The position numbers and the translations under genes are program-made. A DNA stretch of 64,000 bases from Acidobacteriota bacterium. GTDB lineage: Bacteria; Acidobacteriota; Terriglobia; Terriglobales; Acidobacteriaceae. Shown piece after piece: positions 32,284 through 42,314 of this stretch; position 1 is the stretch's first letter; the number at the start of each line of letters is the position of its first letter. The stretch spans positions 1-64,000 of the forward strand of contig JAJYUB010000017.1 in NCBI GenBank assembly GCA_021792795.1, read 5' to 3'. Under the pieces are notes generated by a model. The model had not been told where the DNA came from. It was given only the letters and a program-made list of their open reading frames with translations, and searched no databases.

Positions 32284-32622
32284 ATGGACCTTCAAAAGCG
32301 AATCCGTTTCGTGGTCTGCGCGACATGTCTTGTTTTCGCGCTTGCTGTCATGCCGGCGACCTGGGCGCTGTCTCCGTCTTCCGGCGCGGGTCAGGCCGCT
32401 TCCATGTCCGCAACGCGGTCTCACGCGGACAAACTGGACATCAACACGGCCACGGAAGACCAATTGAAAGTCCTGCCGGGAGTCGGCGATGTCTTTGCGA
32501 AGAGAATTATCGCGGGGCGCCCCTATCGAGCGAAAAATCAACTGGTCAACAAGGGAATTCTGCCCCAGGGGGTGTACGAAAAGATCAAAGACCAGATCAT
32601 TGCGCATCGCGTGAAGAAGTAA
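32284..32622 (+). CDS. Exported ComEA-type helix-hairpin-helix protein
   Basis: A 112-residue protein with an N-terminal signal or anchor (residues 8-28, VVCATCLVFALAVMPATWA). It has one HhH motif pair (DINTATEDQLKVLPGVGDVFAKRII, then KNQLVNKGILPQGVYEKIKDQI). ComEA-like proteins bind DNA without sequence specificity in the periplasm during transformation, but single-HhH secreted proteins are also widespread with unknown roles. GGAGGGA precedes the ATG at 32284 by seven bases. Confidence 0.8.
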   Translation: MDLQKRIRFVVCATCLVFALAVMPATWALSPSSGAGQAASMSATRSHADKLDINTATEDQLKVLPGVGDVFAKRIIAGRPYRAKNQLVNKGILPQGVYEKIKDQIIAHRVKK

Positions 32623-32774
32623 TTTCGGGCCTGTACAACGGCGCATTCGTCCGCGCGTGCCCCGCCTGCGCATGGATTCTCGCGGCCATGCAAGTCTTTC
32701 ATCCTGGCGCATGGCGCCCGCCGCGCCAATGCCCGCCGTTTGACGCCAGGATTCGATCCCGATATATATTCATT

Positions 32775-32929
32775 AGCCCTTGGTGTTCGGGAAGCGCGGT
32801 GCAACTCCGCCACTACCCCGTAACTGTAAGCGCGGAGAGCAAGGCAGGGCTGTATGCAGCCACTGGACGGAGAGCGTCTGGGAAGGTGTGCCAAGCTCAA
32901 TCGAAGCGCAAGTCAGGAGACCGGCCAGG
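32775..32929 (+). promoter_or_regulatory. Cobalamin riboswitch, first copy
   Basis: All main conserved blocks of the B12 aptamer are in order: GGGAAGCGCGGTGCAACTCC, then CCCCGTAACTGTAAGC, GCCACTGG, TCTGGGAAGGTG, and the B12-box AAGTCAGGAGACCGGCC. Length about 155 bases. It is followed by 194 bases without a gene and then a second riboswitch. Confidence 0.92.
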
Positions 32930-33123
32930 GTCACTTCATAGCTGTCTTTCGGTCGCGATGGGAGGACCGAAGGGAGCGCGTTTCAGCCCGACTGCGGCTG
33001 ATCGACGCATTCCCAGGTTTCGTGTCGCATGTTTCGCTCCGCGCGCTTCTTCCTTTGCGAAGAGGGCGCGGCGTCCGGCGCTTGGCTGCATCGTTTCGCG
33101 GCAGGCGTAAGCTGTCCACCATC

Positions 33124-33388
33124 CATGAAGTGTCGGGAAGCGCGGTGCAACTCCGCCACTACCCCGTAACTGTAAGCGCGAGAGCAAAACCAGGGAAAAT
33201 GTTTGCCGGAACCAGATCGTTCGATCGACGCGACCAACAGGGAGCGGCGACCTTGAGCGAAGAGGGACCGGAGAGAACGACCCTGGTTTTGCTCTAGAGC
33301 CGGGCAAGGCAGTTCGCAACCACTGGACGTACGCGTCTGGGAAGGTGCCCAAGCTTGAGGAAGCGCAAGTCAGGAGACCGGCTTCATG
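33124..33388 (+). promoter_or_regulatory. Cobalamin riboswitch, second copy with a 113-base extra arm
   Basis: The same blocks recur: GGGAAGCGCGGTGCAACTCC, CCCCGTAACTGTAAGC, CCACTGG, TCTGGGAAGGTG and AAGTCAGGAGACCGGC. The P1 stem is CATGAAG (33124-33130) with CTTCATG (33382-33388). A long arm is inserted after the ACTGTAAGC block, closed by perfect 14-base arms GAGCAAAACCAGGG (33182-33195) and CCCTGGTTTTGCTC (33281-33294). The aptamer ends 22 bases before the receptor ATG, so regulation by hiding the ribosome site is plausible. Confidence 0.9.
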
Positions 33389-33410
33389 CAACCATCCGAG
33401 GGGATCACGC

Positions 33411-35972
33411 ATGACTTTTTCAGCTCTTGTTCCAGATGTATTTCGCCCTGCAGTTCGACGCGCATCGCTTTTGGCCGCGTTGGCAATCTGTCTTTCCTCG
33501 TTTCTGCTGTCGTCCAAACCTGCGATCGCCGCTCCCGTTCAGCAACGGACCGTCACGGGAACGGTGAAGGGAACCGTGACAGATCCGCTGGGGGCAGCGG
33601 TGTACAACGCCCGCGTCGACATCATGGCTCCCAATGGTGTCATGCTGCAGTCCCACGGACGGACCGACGGTCGCGGACAGTACATTGTCTATGTCTACCG
33701 GCCTGGCCGGTATCGCGTCCGCGTCATCGCAAACGGCTTCAACGCCACTCAGAGCAACGATATTTATGTGGCGATGGGCAAGACGTCCTATGCCGATGTC
33801 GCGCTTCAGTTCGGGCACCTGGAGCAGAGCGTGACTGTGACGGCGAACGGCACCCCCACGCCAGAAGCGCAAAGCGGCGCTTCCACCACGGTGGTCGATC
33901 AGTCTCTCTACCCCTATGCGCTCGATGTGCAGGACACGCTGCGCCTGGTGAGCGGCCTGCAATTTACAACCAGCGGGCAGCGCGGCGCGGCGACTTCCTT
34001 GTTTGAGATGGGCGGGAATTCGAACGAGACCGATGTGCTGCTGGATGGCGTTCCCATCAACGACATTGGCGGCGCGGTAAATTTCGCCTACCTGGCATCC
34101 AACGGCATCAGTCAGGCGGAGGTCTATCGCGGCCCCGACAGCTCTCTATACGGCGCCAATGCATCCTCCGGCGTGGTGGCGCTGACAACTACGCGGGGAA
34201 CCACGGCGAAGCCGCTGCTGCAATACGCCATCGATGCCGGCAACTTCGGGACCTATCATCAGGAAGCCTCGCTGGGCGGGGTGCATAGCGCGTTCGATTA
34301 TTTTGGCGACTTCGCCCGCATCGACACTTCCAACAGTTATCCCAACAGCACGTTCCACAATGTCTCTTCCGTCGGCAACCTTGGATATGCCCTCACCCCG
34401 CACGTTCAGGTGCGGGCCACCGCGCATCGCATCGCAGCCTCCACCGGCGAGCCGAACGCCATCCTGTTCTACGGAATCCCCGACGTGCAGTATTTGAAGG
34501 AGCATGACCTGTACGGGAGCGGCACCATCGAAGATCGTCCCAGCGACAAGCTGGATATGATTGCCCAATATGGACTGGTGCGACTGCGCTCTCTCAACAC
34601 GGATCCGGGTCCGGTCGGCATCCTGACCGACAATCCCAACAACTTCAATTGCTATGACAACCTGGGGAATCCCGGACAACCGGAATATCTGGGCAAGCAG
34701 GTCACAATCAATGGCGCCAATGGGACCAGCGCCAGCGGGCAGGCATTCTATAGCTGCCCGAGTTACACGTTTCCAGGGACCGACGGAACGTTGACCAACC
34801 AGGATTATTTCTACGGCCAGGCAAGTTATAAAAAGAACGATAAATTGACCGCGTTCGCTGCGTTTCGCTATCAGTCGGAACGCGGCTACACCGCCTACGA
34901 CTATTTCCCGCAATCGGCCCATCGCGGCAACTACGACTACATCCTGCAGGCCTCCGGCAGCATGGCAAACCGGTTGTATTACAGCGCCGGGACCGACCTT
35001 CCATACTATTCCGTGTTCGGTTTTCAGCCCACGCCCCATGCAACCGCGGCCTACTATCTTTCCAAGCCGACTGCCGACGGCCTCTTGAGCGGCACCAAAC
35101 TTCGATTCAATTATTCGCAAGGCATTCTGGAGCCGACCATTGCCGAGCAGAACGGCTCCATTTACGACGTGCTGAACTCGTTGCCGAACGGCCAGCAACT
35201 GATCGCGCAGCATGGAATCGCGCCGGTCGGCGCGCAACAGACCAGCACCTATGAAGCGGGCGCGGACCAGCACCTGTTTGGGACCCGGGCGCTGGTCCAC
35301 GGCGGCTATTATCGCAACAATTTCACCAGGCAGATTGAGTTTGTCGATGCCCCGGCGCTGTTGCAGCTCGGCGTTCCGCAGGCAGTCGAGCAGGCGATTG
35401 CCAACACCTCCTTCGGCGCCTATATCAATTCGTTGAGCTTCAACGCTCAAGGCATGGAGAGCAGCGCCGAGTATCGCATCACGAATCGGTTGTTTGTCCG
35501 CGGCGGATACACGCTATTGAATTCCACCGTGCAGAAGTCGTTTTCCAGCGACAATTCCTTTCCATCCTATAATCCGAAATATCCCAACACGCCCATTGGG
35601 GCCTACTCGCCGCTGGTCGGCCAGCGTCCCTTTCGGCGGGCGCAGCACACCGGCAACTACGCGGTCATCTACGCGCGAAGTCGCTGGTATGCGGAAATGA
35701 CGGGCACGCTCGTCGGCAGACGCGACGATAGTACGTTTCTGGCCGACGCCAATGGCGGGACCACGCTGTTGCTGCCGAATCGCAATCTCGACCCGGCCTA
35801 CCAAAACATTGGATTGACAACCCATCTCCGCATCGATCGGCACATCTCCAGCTACACCGTGTTCGACAATTTGCTGAGCCAGCACTATCAGGAAGCGTTG
35901 GGCTATCCGGCGTTGCCGTTCAACTTCCGCGCCGGGATGCAATTTAACTGGGGAGGCGACGCGACGCACTGA
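33411..35972 (+). CDS. TonB-dependent receptor, probable B12 importer
   Basis: An 853-residue outer-membrane protein with a signal peptide (residues 1-41, ending AIA). A carboxypeptidase-regulatory-like Ig domain follows at about 48-130 (VTGTVKGTVTDPLGAAVYNARV ... PGRYRVRVIANGF), then a TonB plug (about 140-260, with VLLDGVPINDIGGAVNFAYL and VYRGPDSSLYGANASSGVV) and a beta barrel ending FRAGMQFNW. Two cobalamin riboswitches lead into it, so the ligand is inferred to be cobalamin or a corrinoid (BtuB role). GAGGGG precedes the ATG by seven bases. Confidence 0.88.
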   Translation: MTFSALVPDVFRPAVRRASLLAALAICLSSFLLSSKPAIAAPVQQRTVTGTVKGTVTDPLGAAVYNARVDIMAPNGVMLQSHGRTDGRGQYIVYVYRPGRYRVRVIANGFNATQSNDIYVAMGKTSYADVALQFGHLEQSVTVTANGTPTPEAQSGASTTVVDQSLYPYALDVQDTLRLVSGLQFTTSGQRGAATSLFEMGGNSNETDVLLDGVPINDIGGAVNFAYLASNGISQAEVYRGPDSSLYGANASSGVVALTTTRGTTAKPLLQYAIDAGNFGTYHQEASLGGVHSAFDYFGDFARIDTSNSYPNSTFHNVSSVGNLGYALTPHVQVRATAHRIAASTGEPNAILFYGIPDVQYLKEHDLYGSGTIEDRPSDKLDMIAQYGLVRLRSLNTDPGPVGILTDNPNNFNCYDNLGNPGQPEYLGKQVTINGANGTSASGQAFYSCPSYTFPGTDGTLTNQDYFYGQASYKKNDKLTAFAAFRYQSERGYTAYDYFPQSAHRGNYDYILQASGSMANRLYYSAGTDLPYYSVFGFQPTPHATAAYYLSKPTADGLLSGTKLRFNYSQGILEPTIAEQNGSIYDVLNSLPNGQQLIAQHGIAPVGAQQTSTYEAGADQHLFGTRALVHGGYYRNNFTRQIEFVDAPALLQLGVPQAVEQAIANTSFGAYINSLSFNAQGMESSAEYRITNRLFVRGGYTLLNSTVQKSFSSDNSFPSYNPKYPNTPIGAYSPLVGQRPFRRAQHTGNYAVIYARSRWYAEMTGTLVGRRDDSTFLADANGGTTLLLPNRNLDPAYQNIGLTTHLRIDRHISSYTVFDNLLSQHYQEALGYPALPFNFRAGMQFNWGGDATH

Positions 35973-36302: not shown

Positions 36303-37859
36303 ATGCGCGTACATTTAGTAAATCCTAGCGATTCATCATTTGGAATTGGCGTCATTACCCCTCGTTGGCTGTATGTTCTCGCCGCCGCCACCCCCGTAAA
36401 ATACGGCGATCCACTCATTACCGATGAAACTCTGGAGCGGTTCCAGCCGGAGAGCGTCCAGCCTGGAGACGTGGTTGGCATCGGCATTCATACCGGCAAT
36501 GCGCTGCGCGGCATGGAACTGGGAAAAATCGCCCGCGAGCGCGGCGCTTTCGTTGTCTATGGAGGCATCCACGCGACCCTTTATCCCAATGAAGCCATGG
36601 AACTCGGCGCCGCTCACGCCATCGTCAAGGGCGATGGCGACGTGATCTGGGGAAGAGTCATCGCGGACCTGCTCGCGGGAACGGCCCAAACGGTCTACGA
36701 CGGTGGCCGGATCTCCGGCGACCAGTTCATCCCGGCGCGCTGGGACCTGGCGCCGCGCGACAAATATATGTGGGCCTCCGTGCAAACCGTGCGGGGCTGC
36801 CCGAAACATTGTTCGTTCTGCTCCGTATGGCGCACGGATGGTCAAAAACCGCGACCCCGCACTTCCGACGTCGTGGTGCGCGAGATCGTCGATTTGCGCC
36901 GCCGGGGATTTCGCTTCATCGCCCTCGCCGACGACAATTTCTACCCCGTCAGCCTCGCCGATCTTCGACTGGCGGAGCAACAGGGAAACACCGCCCGTGT
37001 TGCCGAGTTGCAAGGCATCCGCTCCGAGCGGTTTGAGCTGATGAGCAAGCTGGCCAAGCTACCCAGGGACATGGTGTTCTTTACGCAAATCACCATGGAA
37101 GCCGGCGAGGACGTTCAATTTCTCGATGCCATGCGCAAGGCCAACATCAAAGGCGCGCTTGTCGGGGTGGAGTCAGCCACTGCGGAAGGGCTCAAGGCCG
37201 TCTTCAAGGACTTCAACCTCTCCGGCGACAACCTGATAAAGCGGCTACAGACATTCAAGGAACACGGAGTCCACGTCCTCGGATCGTTCATCTTCGGGCT
37301 CTCTTCCGACCGTCCGGACACTTTCGCCGCGACGGCGGAGCTGGCCAAGCGCGCTGGCATTACCTTTGCGCAATTCGTGATGCTCACCCCCTTTCCCGGC
37401 ACCATCGACTTCGACCGCTGGGAGAAGAACCTCGGCGAAAATGTCATGCACGTCGGCGGCATTCCCATCACGCGCCACTGGTTGATTCCGGCGGCCGTTC
37501 GGCCCAAGATGTTCAGCCCGCACGCCATCATGTCGTCGGAAGAAATTCGCGAGCGCACCCAGGGTGTCTGGGATGAATTCTATAGCCTGCCGGAAATCTG
37601 GAAGCGCTCCAAGTGCGTGCCAACATTGCGCGGCCGTCTGGCGTTTCTCTTCATCTCGAAGCTATACCGGCAAATGTATGCCAAGACCGGCATTTCCACC
37701 GACAGCGCCCGTCGCCAGAAGGCGACCCGCATGGCGCGATGGCTGGCGGTCCCGTGCCGCAAGCTGTTTGAAGCCAAGCCCATGCCGGAGCTGAAAATGC
37801 CGGAGCCGCTCTATGCTCCTTCTGACCTGCTGCCAGTTCTGGATTCGTACTCTGCATAG
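36303..37859 (+). CDS. B12-binding-domain radical SAM protein
   Basis: A 518-residue cytosolic enzyme. The N-terminal cobalamin-binding-like Rossmann domain (residues 1-150) has GIGIHTGNALRGMELGKIARERG and FVVYGGIHATLYPNEAMELGAA. The radical SAM domain has the iron-sulfur motif CPKHCSFC (C166, C170, C173). A DUF4070-like C-terminal region follows. Such enzymes perform radical methylations or ring rearrangements; the closest well-known groups are hopanoid methylases (HpnP) and similar. The usual cobalamin histidine motif is not evident. It stands next to B12 uptake and convergent with an ABC exporter. Confidence 0.85.
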   Translation: MRVHLVNPSDSSFGIGVITPRWLYVLAAATPVKYGDPLITDETLERFQPESVQPGDVVGIGIHTGNALRGMELGKIARERGAFVVYGGIHATLYPNEAMELGAAHAIVKGDGDVIWGRVIADLLAGTAQTVYDGGRISGDQFIPARWDLAPRDKYMWASVQTVRGCPKHCSFCSVWRTDGQKPRPRTSDVVVREIVDLRRRGFRFIALADDNFYPVSLADLRLAEQQGNTARVAELQGIRSERFELMSKLAKLPRDMVFFTQITMEAGEDVQFLDAMRKANIKGALVGVESATAEGLKAVFKDFNLSGDNLIKRLQTFKEHGVHVLGSFIFGLSSDRPDTFAATAELAKRAGITFAQFVMLTPFPGTIDFDRWEKNLGENVMHVGGIPITRHWLIPAAVRPKMFSPHAIMSSEEIRERTQGVWDEFYSLPEIWKRSKCVPTLRGRLAFLFISKLYRQMYAKTGISTDSARRQKATRMARWLAVPCRKLFEAKPMPELKMPEPLYAPSDLLPVLDSYSA

Positions 37860-42107: not shown

Positions 42108-42177
42108 GTATCGGAAGGCTGGACTTGCTGGGTACAGCTAGACCGGATTTACAGATTCCGTAGTTAAAGGAGAGTTG

Positions 42178-42275
42178 GTCATTCTGAGCGAAGCGAAGAA
42201 TCCAGAGTGCGACAGCAGCGTGGACGAGGCAGATGTTCTCTGGATTCTTCGGTCGCTGCGGCCACCTCAGAATAA
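42178..42275. repeat. Dispersed palindromic repeat, copy 1
   Basis: Begins GTCATTCTGAGCGAAGCGAAG, continues AATCCAGAGTGCGA and ends with the inverse CTCTGGATTCTTCGG ... CTCAGAATAAC, so the ends pair. A diverged copy lies at 49898-49985. The GTCATTCTGAGCGAAGCGAAG core is widespread in genomes of several phyla. Confidence 0.75.
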
Positions 42276-42314
42276 CTCCCGTTCAGACTCGACTGCACCA
42301 ACTGTAAATCTGCT

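Follow-up and report, generated by a model that had tools for sequence, protein, structure and literature searches.

In an Acidobacteriota genome, the leader of a BtuB-like receptor gene carries two cobalamin riboswitches in tandem, and the long extra arm of the second riboswitch belongs to a family of dispersed repeats. We analyzed a 64,000-nt stretch of this genome (hereafter the window), which lies on contig C70 of a 4.04 Mb assembly in 133 contigs, together with the corresponding loci of related genomes. The explanation that we hold with high confidence is that the two AdoCbl-type switches in front of the receptor gene derive from an old tandem duplication, that a TA-type, MITE-like element inserted recently and forms the arm, and that the switch probably still functions.

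Two cobalamin aptamers precede a BtuB-like receptor gene

The earlier note on this DNA had described two complete cobalamin sensors in front of one TonB receptor gene, and the covariance-model search bears this out. When the window was scanned with cmscan, both copies scored above the RF00174 gathering score of 31.5 bits (Table 1). The conserved B12 box, P1, the C-rich L5 and a downstream partner loop were found for both aptamers by sequence and alignment, and AAGTCAGGAGACCGGC is present in both. As judged by eye, P1 of copy 1 is formed by about 32777-32784 with 32924-32930, and its L5 CCCC lies at 32816-32819; P1 of copy 2 is formed by 33124-33131 with 33381-33388 (also by eye), and its L5 CCCC lies at 33162-33165. 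We infer that both predicted aptamers recognize cobalamin and are of the AdoCbl type. The insert caused a whole-genome search to report copy 2 as separate partial matches scoring 31.9 bits and, below the cut-off, 28.6 bits; the scan of the window joins the two. No RF00174 match was found elsewhere in the host genome by whole-genome search at E 0.001, the assembly being 98.2% complete.

The geometry that had been described for copy 2 was also confirmed. Exactly 22 bases separate the end of its P1 (33388) from the start codon, and the arm spans exactly 113 nt and is closed by a perfect 14-base stem, which a 15th pair (A33181 with T33295) extends.

The gene directly downstream of copy 2 (33411..35972, + strand, with its ATG at 33411) encodes a BtuB-like TonB-dependent receptor of 853 aa. 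Its Pfam domains are Plug (3.7e-14) and CarboxypepD_reg (5e-12), and its top PDB match is the B12 transporter BtuB (5.8e-12, residues 140-325). Downstream of the receptor, on the same strand, a radical SAM protein (PF04055) is encoded at 36327-37859; its match to a B12-binding domain is below the cut-off. Upstream of the aptamers lies a promoter-like element, which is retained in seven of eight aligned same-genus loci, L040 being the exception. A consensus promoter scan of 32600-33450 returned no promoters; it missed TTGACG/TATATA because the scan rule demands that the second hexamer end in T.

Table 1. Features of the receptor leader, in coordinates of the window
Feature	Position	Strand	Details
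Promoter-like TTGACG - 17 nt - TATATA	32740..32768	+	by eye; just 5' of copy 1 P1
Cobalamin aptamer, copy 1	32764..32943	+	RF00174, 86.2 bits, E 7.6e-20
P13-like hairpin of copy 1	32948..32971	+	stem 32948-32954 with 32965-32971, loop GCGATGGGAG
Cobalamin aptamer, copy 2, including insert	33111..33400	+	RF00174, 53.9 bits, E 1.3e-10
MITE-like repeat forming the extra arm	33182..33294	+	terminal inverted repeats 33182-33195 and 33281-33294
Remainder of copy 2 accessory domain	33297..33369	+	GAGC/GGGC with GCCC/GCUU intact 3' of insert (by eye)
Shine-Dalgarno hairpin AUCC-GAGG-GGAU	33394..33405	+	Shine-Dalgarno GAGGGG 33398-33403, 7 nt before start codon

The tandem is conserved within the genus

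Both copies are kept in relatives of the host. RF00174 matches were present in 55 of the 61 genomes searched, and at least 12 of the 61 carry a same-strand aptamer pair, this count being a lower bound because stricter filters were applied. A tandem was defined here as a same-strand pair less than 500 nt apart, counted from the match list of the 61-genome search; a family-wide search of 300 genomes, which gave best rows only, did not enter the counts. By rank, tandems were found in 8/10 genomes of the genus, 3/27 other members of the family, 0/14 genomes from the order and 1/10 from the class. The two genomes of the genus without a tandem are G001, which has a divergent pair, and G008, which has no match.

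We fetched 12 tandem loci from 11 other genomes, and on rescanning the tandem was found again. The gap between the aptamers is 131-173 nt in these 12 loci, and holds no well conserved frame. Downstream receptors are 64-97% identical to that of the window in 10 loci, some of them truncated by contig ends; the extremes of receptor identity are G006 (97%), whose copy 2 is free of the arm, and G032 (locus L045; 40%). The locus of G057 gave only a weak receptor match of 193 residues. One genome, G009, has two receptor loci (L041 and L042), each with tandem aptamers, and their receptors are 74% (partial) and 79% identical to that of the window. In L046 (G057:C265:15152-16291), which comes from another family of the class, a divergent aptamer and a tandem pair lie within 1.2 kb.

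We built a tree from 24 aptamers, without L046 as too distant, and in it a single branch separates the copy 1s from the copy 2s (support 86/99, and 87% of bootstrap trees); support within each side is low. Because the copy 1s and copy 2s separate in this way, the duplication appears to be old, and it is probably older than the genus. Judging by these comparisons, the tandem is real and conserved, of a known but uncommon kind, and within this genus it is the rule.

The extra arm is a dispersed repeat

Counting itself, the stretch 33181-33295 has six matching places in its own genome. It is 82% identical to C44:11891-12004 over the whole length and 75% identical to a copy in C50, and three further places match in the central core only. 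Similarity among the copies ends beyond the inverted repeats. A covariance model built from the six copies (R1) finds 7 places in the host genome and at least one place in 7 of 41 genomes, some of them with weak scores. The better-preserved copies start with CTAGAGC(A/G)AAACC and end with GGTTTTGCTCTAG, and their terminal inverted repeats are near-perfect as well. We counted pairing at the repeat ends over 16 of 24 distinct places, leaving out 8 of the 9 places of G017; the 17 terminal pairs are 89.6% paired, and 10 of the 17 change on both sides. These two-sided changes fit ends recognized by one transposase as well as they fit a hairpin. The repeat is short and non-coding, and in C33 and C85 it is flanked by TA on both sides.

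Empty sites were found for two of the copies. Where the filled sites are bounded by TA on either side, relatives with an empty site show one TA: G006 and G008 for C44, and G006 and G007 for C85, which there reads CTAG. In G008 the C85 site holds an unrelated stretch of similar length, and is neither empty nor occupied by the repeat. The C50 copy is common to the host and G006. At the riboswitch itself, the earlier note had left the arm's conservation to a comparison with related genomes, and we found none: the arm is missing from copy 2 in 12/12 of the relatives' tandem loci (11 loci aligned). Copy 2 is 163-200 nt long in the 12 fetched loci, as against 290 in the window, and after removal of 115 nt it aligns gap-free with L042 around the insertion site (by eye).

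The flanks at the riboswitch differ from those at C44 and C85, where a TA duplication accompanies insertion: here the repeat has GA (33180-33181) on its left and TA (33295-33296) on its right. The same site also reads GA in the loci of 8 same-genus relatives, so a clean TA insertion would need one extra change. Either the target became TA and the left copy then reverted, or the event was no clean TA insertion. A pattern search for an autonomous partner, allowing 1 mismatch in the assembly of 133 contigs, found no matching end pairs about 1 kb apart, and no transposase with matching ends was seen among the 12 DDE_3 loci inspected (of 14 matches). In one DDE_3 locus, L115, the ends are flanked by TA and open with GAGC, beyond which they are unlike the repeat ends. 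The case for mobility therefore rests on the copies and the empty sites.

The earlier note had regarded tandem B12 sensors of unequal architecture as uncommon. The rarity of tandem B12 sensors agrees with what is available of PMC9481103 and PMC2258182, but inequality by design is not supported, because the arm is a dispersed-repeat insertion. On the evidence of its copies and of the empty sites, the extra arm is a captured mobile repeat and no designed unequal architecture.

Two further observations concern repeats of this kind. At positions 42144-42286 there is a 75% identical copy of a different palindromic repeat, which also adjoins C85 and folds into a long hairpin; a query holding that C85-side repeat gave 36-57 matches in 8/10 genomes of the genus, most of those listed being at that stretch. 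In G017, a weak R1 match (43 bits; L112 1639-1759, G017:C29:55138-55258) lies between a Shine-Dalgarno hairpin and the sole cobalamin aptamer detected in that genome, immediately 3' of the latter. With its degenerate ends, this match may be plain leader sequence.

Copy 2 probably tolerates the insertion

By eye, the insert occupies a junction between helices in the accessory domain, with the strand GCGC on one side and GAGC-GGGC on the other. The GCGC strand 5' of the insert can pair with the GCGC that precedes AAGUCAGGAGACC. Both neighboring helix strands remain whole, and GGGC/GCCC appears as GAGC/GCUC in copy 2 of L035. In the available text of PMC9600662, this region is the part of the aptamer called P6 accessory and is highly variable, and the P8-P10-P11 domain of the cobalamin aptamer is optional according to that of PMC2258182. 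We propose that a TA-type palindromic MITE-like repeat recently inserted at the junction that opens the accessory domain, and that its terminal inverted repeats would make it a self-contained arm, leaving the aptamer core and the adjacent helix strands intact. Because such an arm would fold on its own inverted repeats, the core should be undisturbed and the switch probably remains functional. In RNAfold minimum-free-energy structures, the pairs outside the arm are identical with and without it; the model lacks the pseudoknot and differs from the accepted fold, so this comparison is a weak one.

We consider it unlikely that the insert instead broke copy 2, leaving copy 1 alone to regulate the gene while copy 2 decays. 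The score of copy 2 (53.9 bits) is low against the range of 84.9-98.4 bits for copy 2 in the 12 loci of relatives, and the arm dominates its fold energy (-112.6 with the arm, -53.2 without), but a drop in score is expected from any long insert. The conserved core blocks, P1, L5 and the Shine-Dalgarno hairpin are all intact and, outside the insert, copy 2 is 93% identical to copy 2 of L037, which argues against decay, although an intact core would also be expected soon after an insertion.

Still less probable, in our judgment, is that the arm is a selected functional extension that tunes copy 2, by slower co-transcriptional folding or altered affinity, and so gives the two sensors different set points. 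The perfection of its stem might suggest selection but is accounted for by the terminal inverted repeats, which are near-perfect in copies elsewhere. The accessory arms of relatives do vary, with L039 and L036 carrying a GC-rich hairpin near the same place, and this would agree with the variability known for the P6 accessory region (PMC9600662, as far as its available text goes). Against a selected extension stand the origin of the arm's sequence in a dispersed repeat family and its absence from the relatives' 12 tandem loci. We prefer a recent insertion that the switch survives, and we infer that the arm is neutral.

The two copies may have different expression platforms

The loop of the P13-like hairpin that follows copy 1, GCGAUGGGAG, contains an AUGGG able to base-pair with CCCGU of L5. 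Five of the 10 rows are distinct, and the hairpin stem is paired in every one of them; 4/7 pairs change on both sides. The covariation score of the stem is reached by 11/500 shuffles, and the covariation comes mainly from one distant row, L045. This count was made without L042 and L037, which have a one-base loop insertion; by eye, 6/7 and 7/7 pairs, respectively, form in these two loci. After copy 2, an identical 12-nt Shine-Dalgarno hairpin is found in 10 of 13 tandem loci, L043 having one extra G. L045 and L046 have Shine-Dalgarno hairpins of their own, and the top-ranked hairpin of the search was a different one in L035 and L043.

The earlier note had suggested that one copy might control transcription and the other translation. 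The second half of this suggestion fits copy 2, which looks like a translational switch by virtue of its Shine-Dalgarno hairpin. The first half fared less well: copy 1 has its P13-like hairpin, but we found no intrinsic (U-tract) terminator after it in 32600-33450, and, among the 13 loci, no start codon between the copies opens a well conserved upstream ORF. A U-run of five occurs between the copies in only three of these loci (L036, L038 and L041). Copy 1 may nonetheless exert transcriptional control.

That copy 1 governs a leader peptide starting at the AUG in L13, like the Mycobacterium B12-leader uORFs, is very improbable: uORFs are known in B12 riboswitch leaders (PMC11260477, in the text available), and a 50-codon frame opens at AUG 32958 and has 49-50 codons in 5 of the 11 loci where the AUG is present, but across these 11 loci the frames range from 13 to 64 codons and the peptides are dissimilar, ATGGGA is missing there in 2/13 loci, no Shine-Dalgarno precedes the AUG (by eye), and the GGG of the loop is explained as a kissing partner. 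We rejected this ORF as the main reading because the frames vary among loci.

We favor a model in which the receptor mRNA leader contains two AdoCbl-type switches that arose by the old duplication. When B12 is bound, the C-rich L5 of copy 2 would kiss the loop of the Shine-Dalgarno hairpin and translation would be repressed; promotion of a ribosome-binding-site hairpin by L5-L13 kissing is a known control step (described in the available parts of PMC10653944, with kissing also in PMC9600662). Copy 1, with its own P13/L13-like hairpin, would probably act earlier, through Rho-type transcript elongation or leader folding, and the two copies together could give a steeper OFF response. Termination of the Rho type, or an influence on copy 2, may be how copy 1 acts. 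The kissing and the mechanism assigned to each copy are predictions.

A second long accessory arm is also a repeat

Four aptamers in the 61-genome search are longer than 250 nt: those of the window (290 nt), G048 (297), G018 (268) and G015 (254). G048, a member of another family of the order, has a single aptamer. Searched against G048, the arm of this aptamer (L049:2336-2420) gives 20 rows, of which 18 are places elsewhere and two are the arm itself and its opposite strand. The same repeat is matched in all four other genomes of its genus that were searched. It measures about 87-98 nt in the longer matches, is unrelated in sequence to the 113-nt repeat, and occupies the accessory domain's 3' side. 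The same leader in G042 is 95% identical over the 240 bases that lead up to the site, where it has 21 nt instead of 113. The arm of G018 was rejected as an insertion; it has one 30-base match elsewhere. Among the long arms tested for repeats, those of the window and G048 are thus repeats and that of G018 is not, and since the window was known beforehand this gives no unbiased rate.

These two cases are independent, involve different repeat families, and both have arm-free relatives. As a tentative generalization, for which we would claim some plausibility but not the better part of the odds, the accessory arms of Acidobacteriota cobalamin riboswitches may grow by capturing mobile palindromic repeats, the accessory domain serving as a safe landing site because such repeats would fold as arms of their own. 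Repeats captured in this manner would supply the length variation known for the domain, as well as raw material for tertiary contacts or altered folding speed. The existence of a second, independent case suggests that repeat capture is more than a single accident, and it raises the testable question of whether captured repeats alter the riboswitch or whether the accessory domain merely tolerates them. By titles and abstract openings, we found no report of a mobile repeat inside a riboswitch aptamer in the open PMC literature. What appears to be new here is the source of the arm, together with a sign, suggested by G048, that this has occurred more than once.

Comparison with known systems

A comparison can be drawn with TA-target MITEs of the IS630/Tc1-mariner kind. 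The 113-nt repeat resembles these in having terminal inverted repeats, in being non-coding and dispersed, and in the TA duplication at two other sites; it differs from them in that no autonomous partner was found in the assembly and in the GA to the left of the riboswitch copy.

The insert lies in a part of the aptamer described as optional and variable in length (PMC9600662, PMC2258182). The length of the accessory domain varies greatly, and the source of the extra RNA goes unnamed in the available text of both papers. Unlike the accessory regions described there, the arm studied here has a source that can be named, a dispersed repeat, and arm-free relatives are at hand for comparison.

In its combination of a ribosome-binding-site hairpin with L5-L13 kissing, here predicted from sequence, copy 2 is like the env8HyCbl and E. 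coli btuB switches, which are not described as tandem pairs in the accessible part of PMC10653944.

Tandem cobalamin aptamers occur in <1% of leaders (PMC2258182), and 26 AdoCbl riboswitch doublets are listed as pseudo-cooperative in PMC9481103, the main text of which, as available, has no occurrence of 'Acidobact'. As in the doublets of these sources, there are two aptamers per leader here, an arrangement read there as independent switches with a more digital or pseudo-cooperative response. Unlike those doublets, as far as the sources describe them, the tandem studied here has no recognized terminator after copy 1 and carries a mobile repeat in one copy; it is also genus-wide in Acidobacteriota and precedes a TonB receptor, and so provides a natural set of paired B12 switches for a single gene.
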